Assembly (NCBI RefSeq): GCF_025790165.1
Contig: NZ_CP094970.1
Span: 2,232,001 to 2,296,000, forward strand
Direction: 5' to 3'
Length of the DNA: 64,000 bases
From: Solicola gregarius
Lineage (GTDB): Bacteria; Actinomycetota; Actinomycetes; Propionibacteriales; Nocardioidaceae
Shown here: one piece after another, positions 12,272-64,000 of the stretch
Layout: the number at the start of each line of letters is the position of its first letter
How positions within the stretch are numbered: the first letter of the stretch is position 1
Translations under genes and position numbers: made by a program
The notes under the pieces: model-generated
Databases searched by the model: none
What the model saw: the letters and a program-made list of their open reading frames with translations, nothing else
What the model was told of the DNA's origin: nothing

Positions 12272-12924
12272 AGGGATTCCGGCCTCAACCGGTCGTCAAG
12301 GCCTTGCCCGACAAGACTCCGTCGAGCGGGCGGGTCCACGACGCGTTGCGTACCGCGATCCTGCACGGAGAGCTCGCGGCCGGCACGAGCCTCGGCGAGG
12401 CGCAGATCGGCGAGCAGCTCGGAGTCTCGCGTACGCCGGTGCGGGAGGCGTTCGCCGAGCTGCTCAACCAGGGCCTGCTCGTCGAGGGCGCCCGCCGGCA
12501 GGTCGTCGTCGCCGACCCGTCGCAGGAGATGATCGACGAGATCGTCCTGATGCGAGACGCGGTCGAACCAGTGATCGCCAGGCAGGCGGCCGAGCGAATG
12601 GACGTGTCGGACGTCGACCAGCTGCGGCTGATCATGATTCGTACGCGCCGGGCGATCGAAGCAGGCGACGGCAATGCCGCGCTCGACTGCGACGACGACT
12701 TCCATCTGCACATTCCGCGTGCGGCCGGGCTCGGCCTTGCGGCGGACGCCATCCGGCGTTTCCGAGGGCTCACCCGGCTCGCCGTGCGGCACTCGGTTTC
12801 CGACGATGCGGCGCTGCGGCGGATTGCCGATGACCACGACGCGATCATCGAGGCGCTGGCCAGTGGAGACGGCGAGAGCGCGGCCGAGGCGATGGCCGCG
12901 CATCTCGCCTCGGCGCCTTACTGA
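12268..12924 (+). CDS. GntR family transcriptional regulator with FCD ligand domain
   Basis: A 218-residue regulator. The N-terminal winged helix (about 20-85) contains [20 protein letters not shown], the classic GntR recognition helix region. The C-terminal FCD domain has the metal-site pattern [13 protein letters not shown] and further His residues. GGGAG seven bases upstream supports the ATG, which overlaps the CocE stop by 4 bp. Co-translation with the hydrolase suggests local control of it and the divergent importer operon. Its 3' end overlaps the converging sodA end by 7 bp. Confidence 0.92.
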
Positions 12925-13544
12925 GCGGTGATCAGCCGGCCCATGTTCGTACGCGCGCGCTCGAACCGCTCGGACACGTCGGCCCAGTTCGCGATGTTCC
13001 AGAACGCCTTCACGTACTCGGCCTTGACGTTCAGGTAGTCGAGGTAGAACGCGTGCTCCCACATGTCGAGCAGCAGCAGCGGGACGACGCCGACGGGTAC
13101 GTTGGCCTGCTGGTCGAAAAGCTGGAAGATCAACAGGCGCTGCCCGATCGAGTCCCAGCCGAGCACTGACCAGCCTGAGCCCTGGATGCCGGTCGCCGTC
13201 GCCGTGAAGTGCGCCTGGAACGCCGCGAACGACCCGAACTGGTCGGTGATCGCCGCAGCGAGCTCGCCATCGGGCTCGCCGCCACCGGTCGGCGAGATAT
13301 TGTGCCAGAACACGGTGTGGTTGGTGTGCCCGCCGAGGTTGAAGGCGAGGTTCCTCTCGTGCAGGTTCACCGCGGCCAGGCTGTCGGTGTCGCGGGCCTC
13401 GGCAAGCCTCTCCAACGCCGTGTTGGCGCCGGCGACGTACGCGGCGTGGTGTTTGTCGTGGTGGAGCTCCATGATCTTCGCGCTGATGTGCGGCTCGAGC
13501 GCCGCGTAGTCGTACGGGAGTTCGGGCAGCGTGTAGACGCTCAT
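12918..13544 (-). CDS. sodA: Superoxide dismutase, Fe/Mn type
   Basis: A 208-residue enzyme that dismutates superoxide to oxygen and hydrogen peroxide. The metal ligands are His28 in ELHHDKHH, a second His in [12 protein letters not shown], and Asp and His in [21 protein letters not shown] is also conserved. The ATG at 13544 follows AGAGGAAACC, a good ribosome-binding site; the longer frame upstream runs through the promoter. No signal peptide is seen, so it is cytosolic. Upstream, a CTCAAC-N4-GTTGAG operator lies in a 19-bp promoter spacer (13574-13604), the hallmark of MerR-type activation. Confidence 0.96.
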
Positions 13545-13573
13545 GTGGTTTCCTCTCGTTCGCGTCGACCTCG

Positions 13574-13604
13574 AACGTAGAACCTCAACCTCAGTTGAGT
13601 TCAA
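13574..13604 (-). promoter_or_regulatory. MerR/SoxR-type promoter of sodA
   Basis: On the minus strand TTGAAC (13604-13599) and TACGTT (13579-13574) are separated by 19 bp, too long for normal sigma-70 recognition but standard for MerR-family activation. The spacer holds CTCAAC-TGAG-GTTGAG (13599-13584). The MFS promoter at 62808-62838 has the same elements and spacing. SoxR boxes (CCTCAA...TTGAGG) are similar but not identical. Confidence 0.7.
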
Positions 13605-61053: not shown

Positions 61054-61315
61054 GATCGGATCTCCTGAACGGTGGCGTGATTGCAGCGGGGGCGCCTGAG
61101 ACGTAATGAGCCTGCATCGCGTGGGTCGCGTCGGTCAACGATTCGATGGCGACTCCGCGACAAACGGCGTGATCGCTGCGACCAACGGTCCTTCGTGTCC
61201 TGAAGGGCTGCTCCGTTGTTCGACCGCAATCGCGACGTGGTACCTAGGGACAGCTGCACGGATAGGTGACATCTGATCTGTGGTGCCGTGAGGTGCTGCT
61301 GGAAGGATGCGCATC

Positions 61316-61605
61316 ATGCCGAAGCCGTATCCGAAGGAGTTCCGTGCCGATGTTGTCCGGGTCGCTCGCGATCGTGGTCCGGAGCAGACCATCGCGCAGA
61401 TCGCGAAGGATTTCGGGATCTCCGAGACGTGTCTGCAGACTGGCTGCGTAAGGCCGACGTCGACGACGGAAGTCGTCCTGGCCTTACCGCTGAAGAAGGG
61501 CGAGAGAACCGCGAACTGCGCAAGCGAGTCCGGCTGCTGGAGCAGGAGAACGAGGTCCTGCGGCGGGCGGCTGCGTATCTGTCGCGTGATGTGAACCCAA
61601 AATGA
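61316..61605 (+). pseudogene. IS3-family OrfA (transposase HTH subunit), frameshifted
   Basis: Starts PKPYPKEFRADVVRVARDRG and has the HTH TIAQIAKDFGISETCLQ. It then goes off frame near 61438, where one base is missing (the other frame reads DWLRKADVDDG). The second frame carries the leucine-zipper tail ENRELRKRVRLLEQENEVLR and ends at 61605. The lost base prevents normal OrfA and the usual programmed OrfAB fusion. Confidence 0.85.
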
Positions 61606-62293
61606 TGTACCCGCTCGTCCGTGAGTTGGCCGTCGACGGTGTCCCCGTCACGGTGACGTGCCGGGTGCTCAAGATCGCTCGTCAGCCGTACTACCGGTGG
61701 CTGGGCGACCCGATCACCAGTACAGAACTCGGAGAGACGTATCTGACCAACGCCGTCTTCGATGCCCACCGCGACGACCCGGAGTTCGGCTATCGGTATC
61801 TGGCCGATGAGGTCCGAGCCACCGGCTATGCGGTTGTCGATCGGACGGTGTGGCGGATCTGTGCGACCAACGGCTGGTGGAGCGTGTTCGGTAAGAGGCG
61901 TGGCAAGAACGGTAAGAAGCCGGGGCCACCGGTCCACGACGACCTAGTCCAACGCGACTTCACTGCTGATGCGCCGAATCGGTTGTGGCTAACCGATATC
62001 ACCGAACACCCAACCGACGAAGGCAAGCTCTACTTGATCGGCACCGCATGGCCGGCTCGATGGGCCAAGTCGGCGCCGCCGGCGACAACGCCGCGATGGA
62101 GTCGTTCTTCGCGCTGCTGCAGAAGAACGTCCTGGACCGCCGCCGCTGGAACACACGAGACGACCTCCGGATCGCGATCATCACGTGGATCGAACGGAAC
62201 TACCACCGCCGACGCCGACAAGACGCGCTCGGCCGATTGACCCCCACCGAGTACGAGACCATCGTGAACCAGACGGTCGCACTGGCGGCCTAA
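61602..62293 (+). pseudogene. IS3-family OrfB (DDE integrase subunit), internal deletion
   Basis: Starts MMYPLVRELAVDGVPV; the first catalytic Asp is in LWLTDITEHPTDEGKLYL. The frame then breaks near 62036, and the other frame resumes at GSMGQVGAAGDNAAMESFF (catalytic Glu) and ends LTPTEYETIVNQTVALAA. The middle part that normally holds the second Asp (HTDRGSQF-type motif) is absent, a loss of roughly 50-60 residues plus a frame change. The element cannot transpose on its own. Confidence 0.87.
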
Positions 62294-62537: not shown

Positions 62538-62844
62538 GTCCCTCGAAGGCGGCTCACGCAGGCGCTGCCCGGAAACGACCGATTTTGGGCGACGGGGGAC
62601 CTACGATGCGGCGTCGAGAAGTCAGGCGACGGCCTTGGCGCCCTCGCGGCTGTTATGGCGCACAGTGGCGATAGCCTGCGCGCTCGCGGCACTAGACCCC
62701 GCTTGCGATGGACAGTCAACGCGGTGAAGCCTTCTGACCCCCGCAAGCGGTTCGGACTGTCGATGGGAGCGAGCTCGCTGAGGATGGACAACTCAGGCGG
62801 TTCACCGTTGACCTCAACTATGGTTGAGTTCCTAGGTTGTCGGT
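62538..62844. other. Intergenic region before the MFS gene
   Basis: A 307-bp stretch with no convincing gene on either strand. The last 40 bp hold the MerR-type promoter of the MFS gene. Short protein-like minus-strand fragments are present but have no start or recognisable family. Confidence 0.5.
62808..62838 (+). promoter_or_regulatory. MerR/SoxR-type promoter of the MFS gene
   Basis: TTGACC (62808-62813) and TAGGTT (62833-62838) are 19 bp apart, with CTCAAC-TATG-GTTGAG (62813-62828) in the spacer. The same layout drives sodA (13574-13604). The start codon lies 6 bp after the -10 element, so the message should be leaderless. Confidence 0.7.
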
Positions 62845-64000
62845 ATGACGATCACTGACTCGACGCCCGCGTCCCCAGGCGGCACGTGGCGCGAACTCCT
62901 CGGCCGCCGCTATCTGGCCACCGCGCTCGTGCTCGCTGGTGGAGTCGCACTGCATGCGGTCAATATCTTCCTGACCACAAGCCTGTTGCCGACGGCCGTC
63001 GGCGACATCGGTGGTCTCGAGCTGTACGCCTGGACCACGACCGTCTTCATGGTCGCTTCGGTCGTCTCCTCGATGCTCGTCAGCAGGCTGCTGGCCGCAC
63101 GAGGTGCGGCGGGCGCGTACCTGTCCGGCCTGGCGCCGTTCGTGTTCGGCACGCTCATCTGCGCCGCGAGCCCGACCATGGAGGTCATGCTCGCGGGCCG
63201 AGCGGTCCAGGGCTTCGGCGGCGGCCTGCTCGCCGGCCTCGGTTACGCACTCATCCAGTCGTCACTTCCCAAACACCTGTGGGCACGCGCCACCGCACTC
63301 GTCTCGGCCATGTGGGGTGTCGGCACCCTGGCAGGGCCGGCCGTCGGAGGAGCGTTCGCGCAGTTCGACGCGTGGCGATTCGCGTTCGTCGTGCTCGCAG
63401 TACTCGGTGTCGCTGCCGCCGTTCTCGCCCCCCGCGCGCTTCCGCGTACCGAGCGCTCAACCTCAACCGAGCCCGTCCCGGGCGCTTCGCTCGGACTGTT
63501 GACCGCCGCGACGGCGGCGATCAGTGTCGCCGGCGTGCTCGAGAACGACACGGCGATGGTCGCGGCACTCCTCCTCGGCATCGCTCTGCTGGTCGGCTTC
63601 GTCGGTTGGGAGCGTCGCTCGCGGATCAGCGTGCTGCCGGCAGCGACGTACCGGGGCCGCTCACCGCTTCGGTGGCTCTACCTGACCGTCGGTCTGCTCT
63701 CGATGGGCACCGTTGTCGAGGCGTTCACTCCGCTGTTCGGCCAGGAGCTCGGCGGCCTCGATCCGTTGCTGGCAGGCTTCCTCGGCGCCACCGTGTCTCT
63801 CGGTTGGTCCACGTCGATGATCTTCAGCTCGAACGCCGAGCGCGAGTCCGTTCAGCGGGCGCTCCGGGTGGTCGGTCCGTCGATCCTCGCGGTCGGACTC
63901 ACGCTTGCTGCGCTCCTCCAACGTGACGACATGGGCGCAACGCTCGTGATCGGATGGGCCGTTGCCCTGATGGTCGCCGGGTCCGGCATCGGTCTCGCGT
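62845..64000 (+). CDS. MFS transporter (3' truncated by window edge)
   Basis: At least 385 residues of a major-facilitator exporter, open to the window end. About 10-11 spans are visible. NIFLTTSLLPTAVGDIGG opens the first helix; LAGRAVQGFGGGLLAGLGYA matches motif B/C regions of drug:H+ antiporters; MWGVGTLAGPAVGGAFAQF is motif C of the 12/14-span DHA group. The substrate is unknown. The promoter carries a MerR-type operator shared with sodA, so induction by redox-active compounds and their export is a reasonable inference. ATG 62845 has no ribosome-binding site. Confidence 0.92.
   Translation, partial: MTITDSTPASPGGTWRELLGRRYLATALVLAGGVALHAVNIFLTTSLLPTAVGDIGGLELYAWTTTVFMVASVVSSMLVSRLLAARGAAGAYLSGLAPFVFGTLICAASPTMEVMLAGRAVQGFGGGLLAGLGYALIQSSLPKHLWARATALVSAMWGVGTLAGPAVGGAFAQFDAWRFAFVVLAVLGVAAAVLAPRALPRTERSTSTEPVPGASLGLLTAATAAISVAGVLENDTAMVAALLLGIALLVGFVGWERRSRISVLPAATYRGRSPLRWLYLTVGLLSMGTVVEAFTPLFGQELGGLDPLLAGFLGATVSLGWSTSMIFSSNAERESVQRALRVVGPSILAVGLTLAALLQRDDMGATLVIGWAVALMVAGSGIGLA

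Follow-up and report, generated by a model that had tools for sequence, protein, structure and literature searches.

The stretch of DNA analysed here, called the window, covers 64,000 nucleotides of the Solicola gregarius genome. Near its end, an MFS exporter gene is preceded by a promoter that closely resembles that of sodA, a superoxide dismutase gene located much earlier in the window. The locus raises the question of whether both genes answer to one regulator, which regulator that would be, and how many other genes it would control.

Two promoters of one layout

The features of the window that bear on this question are the following:

12918..13544, - strand: sodA, Fe/Mn superoxide dismutase (SOD) of 208 aa (PF00081, PF02777), the one of two copies with a SoxR-type box
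13552..13557, - strand: Shine-Dalgarno-like GAGAGG of sodA, for a leadered transcript (from the sequence)
13574..13604, - strand: SoxR-type promoter of sodA, with TTGAAC at 13604-13599, the box at 13600-13583 and the -10 TACGTT at 13579-13574
62808..62813, + strand: -35 TTGACC of the MFS gene (from the sequence)
62812..62829, + strand: SoxR-type box CCTCAACTATGGTTGAGT, overlapping the end of the -35 and the 19-bp spacer (from the sequence and pattern search)
62814-62832, + strand: 19-bp spacer of the MFS promoter (from the sequence)
62833..62838, + strand: -10 TAGGTT of the MFS gene (from the sequence)
62845..64000, + strand: MFS exporter of 470 aa (PF07690), running past the window end and complete in L048:7845-9257

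The MFS promoter at 62808-62838 (+ strand) reads TTGACCTCAACTATGGTTGAGTTCCTAGGTT, that is TTGACC-19-TAGGTT around CTCAAC-TATG-GTTGAG, and on re-reading the sequence the description of this layout in the earlier note proved exact. The sodA promoter at 13604-13574 (- strand) reads TTGAACTCAACTGAGGTTGAGGTTCTACGTT. Both share TTGA.., a 19-bp spacer, TA.GTT and an internal CTCAAC-N4-GTTGAG, and 25 of the 31 bases are equal (counted by eye). At both sites a palindromic box lies within a 19-bp spacer between -35 and -10, the arrangement that characterises SoxR-activated promoters (PMC4411124). The pattern TTGANNTCAACNNNNGTTGANNTNNTANNNT, with up to three mismatches, matches exactly these two places within the window, whereas two matches were obtained in 0 of 100 dinucleotide shuffles (mean 0.00). 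With a chance expectation of zero in the window and such close agreement, the claim that the MFS gene carries a MerR-type promoter of sodA-like layout stands.

IS3-like transposase reading frames (OrfA/OrfB type, by eye), broken into overlapping frames, occupy 61307-62293 (+ strand), some 500 bp short of the MFS promoter on its upstream side.

Candidate targets and their regulator

The earlier note had assigned the two genes to a single regulon and had asked for a motif search across the promoters of the genome. This search, performed on the 4.92-Mb single-contig genome with the reversed pattern as control, agrees with a single regulon and widens it from two targets to about ten genes. The bare palindrome CTCAACN4GTTGAG occurs three times (each on both strands) versus zero for the control, and the full promoter pattern with up to three mismatches 12 times versus zero. 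Ten sites show 0-2 mismatches (reversed control, 0), every one of them upstream of a gene:

L051: SgcJ/EcaC family protein (TIGR02246 over cut-off)
L052: sodA
L053: MFS exporter
L054: short-chain dehydrogenase (SDR)
L055: NmrA-like reductase
L056: second SgcJ/EcaC protein
L057: SnoaL-like protein
L058: second MFS exporter
L059: quinone-oxidoreductase-like protein with an ADH_N domain
L060: ABC exporter

The set holds MFS, ABC, quinone oxidoreductase, SDR and NmrA-like genes, in line with the exporters and oxidoreductases that had been anticipated for SoxR. A sequence profile (R1), trained on 42 sites, ranks the ten own sites as its ten top matches in the genome, from 32.1 to 22.9 bits, and the next match at 17.5; since these ten belong to the training set, the ranking says no more than that the pattern search overlooked no other strong site. 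The sodA promoter comes first genome-wide (32.1 bits, E 5.6e-7), and the match spanning 62808-62838 reaches 31.2 bits (E 1.1e-6). Two sites with three mismatches were not counted as targets, L061 because of its poor -10 and L062 because it is without a consensus -10.

Two side observations concern the surroundings of such sites. An identical 31-bp box-like element lacking a consensus -10 is found at L062 (G000:C1:2696955-2696985) and at L193 (G301:C1:678362-678385), in two species of one genus, and precedes a similar small ORF in both, so that L062 is kept as a possible site. At about 7195-7350 of L050, short tandem repeats of GAGGAGAGAGTTCTGGCCCGGT-like units immediately precede the SoxR box of an SgcJ/EcaC gene.

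A single protein of the genome scores above the cut-off of the SoxR family (TIGR01950, 225.9 bits versus a cut-off of 116.9). This protein matches the E. coli SoxR structure 2ZHG at 183.8 bits with the cluster motif aligned, the [2Fe-2S] cysteines CX2CXCX5C being present in CIGCGCLSLSRC, which faces CIGCGCLSRSDC of 2ZHG. Its gene, soxR (C1:4218441-4218857, - strand), lies about 1.9 Mb away and adjoins none of its presumed targets. Autoregulation of soxR was rejected, no box being found in the surrounding 10 kb even with five mismatches allowed, and so was a locally encoded regulator, as there is no match to PF13411 (MerR family) inside the window.

The link between motif and SoxR was examined in 296 genomes of the class, with SoxR defined by TIGR01950 over cut-off, the status of each genome taken from its best E-value (which reproduces the total of 176) and the motif threshold set at one mismatch. 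SoxR was found in 176 genomes and the motif in 110, and no reversed-control motif appeared among the matches listed for the 296. The motif is present in 109 of the 176 SoxR-bearing genomes versus 1 of the 120 without SoxR (Fisher P 2e-32). The sole exception is G033, where three sites were counted and no protein reaches the SoxR cut-off, and 67 of the 176 SoxR-bearing genomes are without a site at this strict threshold. Within the 16 genera found to hold both kinds of genome, the motif occurs in 53 of 85 with SoxR versus 1 of 32 without; a value of 53 was never reached when the data were permuted 200,000 times within genera. In at least 19 genomes, the motif lies 11-60 bp from soxR itself, and in Arthrobacter (L064, L086) and a member of the Microbacteriaceae (L070) the box sits between a divergent soxR and an MFS gene.

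A separate scan of a named genome collection, based on the motif only, gave 28 loci, and in 16 of them the first gene after the box is a relative of one of the ten targets in S. gregarius. This gene is a relative of the MFS exporter in L065, L074, L083, L088 (Mycolicibacterium) and, weakly (28%), L085 (Rhizobium), of the second MFS exporter in L064, L070 and L086, of the ABC exporter in L069, L072, L079 and L081 (Streptomyces), of an SgcJ protein in L076 and L084, of the quinone oxidoreductase in L082, and of sodA in L077 (Mycolicibacterium). Cellulomonas (L067) and Curtobacterium (L071, L078, L090) contribute four further loci, with sodA as the second gene behind the box. The other eight have no target relative as first or second gene, although L089 ends too early to tell; in one of them, L068 of Cellulomonas, the box is followed by a ferredoxin gene and then soxR. 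The box thus heads ferredoxin-sodA (L067), ferredoxin-soxR (L068) and first-gene-sodA (L071, L078, L090) arrangements, which suggests that redox-partner genes may be co-transcribed with SOD or SoxR in Cellulomonas and Curtobacterium. In the congener G301, the promoter precedes MFS, SDR, ABC, quinone oxidoreductase, sodA and second MFS genes.

A chance palindrome in ordinary promoters would account for these sites only with negligible probability: the shortness of the element is the sole point for it, whereas the shuffled and reversed controls gave zero and the conservation of the element in the congener and across the class refutes it. Another MerR-family activator, sensing multiple drugs or electrophiles, might use the promoters in place of SoxR; relatives within the family have the 19-bp architecture in common, and one of the other MerR-family proteins of the genome (21 PF13411 matches in all) could share some sites. 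This is very improbable, given that the motif tracks TIGR01950 both between genomes and within genera and adjoins soxR in at least 19 of them, and that a proven SoxR box has equal half-sites. The latter is the box of Stenotrophomonas maltophilia mfsA, an MFS gene, CCTCAACTGCAGTTGAGG, to which purified SoxR binds and whose mutation abolishes binding, according to the available part of PMC4411124. The MFS box is identical to it at 14 of 18 bases (by eye), with CCTCAAC...GTTGAG in both, and to the E. coli SoxR box at 12 of 18 (by eye; both boxes as given in that part of PMC4411124).

The regulator of the ten-gene set is hence most likely SoxR. The guess in the earlier note that SoxR was involved gains from each of these comparisons, namely a single SoxR in the genome, a motif that follows SoxR over 296 genomes and adjoins soxR elsewhere, the same target families in other species and a published box with equal half-sites. 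What the sequences show directly is the sites and where they lie, the gene for SoxR and its association with the motif across genomes. On these grounds, we hold with high confidence that the 31-bp element would be a SoxR-activated promoter of a redox-stress regulon of about ten genes.

Exporter promoters and a second superoxide dismutase

The exporter belongs to the MFS family (PF07690, 102.9 bits versus 33.4). It stays below the cut-offs of the named subfamilies DHA2/EmrB (TIGR00711, 87.4 versus 230.2 bits) and SdrM (NF040895, 89.9 versus 550 bits), as it does for all NCBIfam cut-offs listed. Its ATG is at 62845, only six bases behind the -10. Among 30 MFS relatives fetched, own gene included, 19 present the box with 0-2 mismatches; the remaining 11 show 6-9 mismatches, which is the level of shuffled sequence, and 7 of these come from SoxR-bearing genomes. 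None of the four relatives from SoxR-less genomes (G184, G201, G219, G283) has the box. An in-frame start codon is located 37-39 bases after the first -35 base, thus 6-8 after the -10, in 18 of the 19 boxed relatives (L146 was counted at 202, its match beginning only at residue 94, and has an ATG at 38). In the own genome, six of the ten targets start at exactly 37, and sodA and the NmrA, quinone oxidoreductase and ABC genes have longer leaders with purine-rich ribosome sites. From this promoter-to-start geometry, leaderless mRNAs are predicted for the MFS pumps, consistent with the transcript start that the earlier note expected at A62845. The own MFS paralogue (52% identical) was rejected as a target, its best match having seven mismatches.

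Several MFS relatives (L122-L126) harbor CTCAAG...CTTGAG, the E. coli-type half-sites, at the place where the others have CTCAAC...GTTGAG, so that the two half-site forms look interchangeable. This bears on a possible mixed set, in which the three perfect sites would belong to SoxR and some of those with one or two mismatches (for example L057 and L058) to a paralogous MerR regulator. The left half-sites of L057 and L060 have diverged and the profile scores drop from 32 to 23 bits among the ten sites; against this, the box precedes six target families in the congener and SoxR boxes do vary at the base in question, as these relatives illustrate. We regard a mixed set as unlikely, and SoxR as the candidate regulator of all ten genes.

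Superoxide dismutase is encoded twice in S. gregarius, and the second copy (C1:4509592-4510182), 71% identical to sodA, is without a box and was rejected as a target (best match, six mismatches). A SOD of the sodA kind occurs in 35 of 100 genomes of the family, with two copies in four: S. gregarius (G000), G301, G337 and G349. The box precedes one SOD copy in exactly these four genomes, and the second copy of each is without it; it was found in 0 of the 26 other loci examined, a survey that left five single-copy genomes unfetched. In a tree of 33 SODs from a set of 35 sequences (L156 and L166, wrongly cut at contig ends, were left out), a clade with local support 0.989 unites the boxed SODs of G000, G301 and G337; the boxed Mycolicibacterium SOD joins it (0.966), apart from the single-copy SODs. 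The boxed SOD of G349 (L169, G349:C1:246210-246818) is identical in coding DNA over 611 bp to the unboxed copy L186, an identity indicating that, unless the assembly is in error, a housekeeping SOD copy was recently put behind the box by duplication or gene conversion. Recruitment of a SOD gene to a SoxR-type promoter thus seems to have happened at least twice. The sodA gene of the window is best read as a stress-inducible spare, a dedicated second SOD. No SoxR-controlled SOD of actinobacteria was found in the literature searched, subscription papers being mostly outside its reach.

Proposed mechanism and known SoxR systems

We infer SoxR binding, redox activation, the transcription starts and the substrates of the regulon from the arrangement of sites and genes. 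A SoxR homodimer with [2Fe-2S] clusters would bind CTCAAC-N4-GTTGAG in the over-long 19-bp spacer, and a redox-cycling compound would oxidise the cluster. Oxidised SoxR would then distort the spacer and thereby make the -35 and -10 usable for RNA polymerase. Spacers of 19-20 bp are typical of the MerR family (available part of PMC8113463), and distortion of the promoter by oxidised SoxR is described as enabling RNA polymerase to start (available part of PMC4411124). The following would be switched on together: export by the two MFS pumps and the ABC pump, chemical conversion by the quinone oxidoreductase, the SDR, the NmrA-like and the SnoaL/EcaC-type proteins, and the dedicated second superoxide dismutase. 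The MFS transcript would begin at the A of its ATG, leaderless, and the sodA mRNA would have a short leader that includes a Shine-Dalgarno sequence.

Here, as in several other lineages of actinobacteria, SoxR may act as a one-step superoxide-and-efflux switch, with direct control of a spare SOD that was boxed more than once in evolution and with pumps expressed from start-codon-fused promoters as leaderless mRNAs when SoxR is oxidised, a reading towards which we lean. If true, it departs from the view drawn from streptomycetes, in which SoxR deals only with redox-active antibiotics made by the cell itself, and suggests that non-streptomycete actinobacteria use SoxR directly for superoxide defence through a second SOD, in addition to export. 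The resemblance of two promoters becomes a defined candidate regulon of ten genes, and the motif and profile can be used to predict SoxR targets in further actinobacteria; one of these is Mycolicibacterium, with an MFS pump and a SOD behind the same promoter.

The kind of system is already known: a SoxR regulon which, like that of Streptomyces coelicolor, would serve to export and convert redox-active compounds. What the sequences would add is the size of the regulon, a spare SOD under direct control, the apparently repeated recruitment of SOD and promoters abutting the start codon. The closest proven case is mfsA of S. maltophilia, where a 19-bp SoxR promoter with CTCAAC/GTTGAG half-sites likewise precedes an MFS gene; mfsA has soxR as its divergent neighbour in that species, whereas soxR is unlinked in Solicola (available part of PMC4411124). 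In S. coelicolor, SoxR controls six genes (ecaA-ecaD, SCO2478 and SCO0320ext), comprising an ABC exporter, a monooxygenase, oxidoreductases and an epimerase-like gene, and a term search of the main text of PMC4146615 found no mention of superoxide dismutase. As proposed here, SoxR acts directly on its targets, the box lies between -35 and -10, and an ABC exporter and quinone or other oxidoreductases are among the targets (available part of PMC4146615). Compared with the six genes given there, Solicola would have about ten, including a superoxide dismutase and two MFS pumps, and unlike in S. coelicolor, as far as this part of the source goes, most of its promoters reach up to the start codon. 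Four Streptomyces loci have boxed ABC genes, presumably ecaA orthologues, with 73-75% identity to the own ABC gene. A SoxR target of Agrobacterium tumefaciens is reportedly sodBII, and direct SoxR control of a target gene in this species is the subject of a paper by Eiamphungporn in 2006. In both species, control of a superoxide dismutase by SoxR would be direct, with no SoxS in between; unlike in A. tumefaciens, the regulon proposed for Solicola is actinobacterial and would include efflux pumps.
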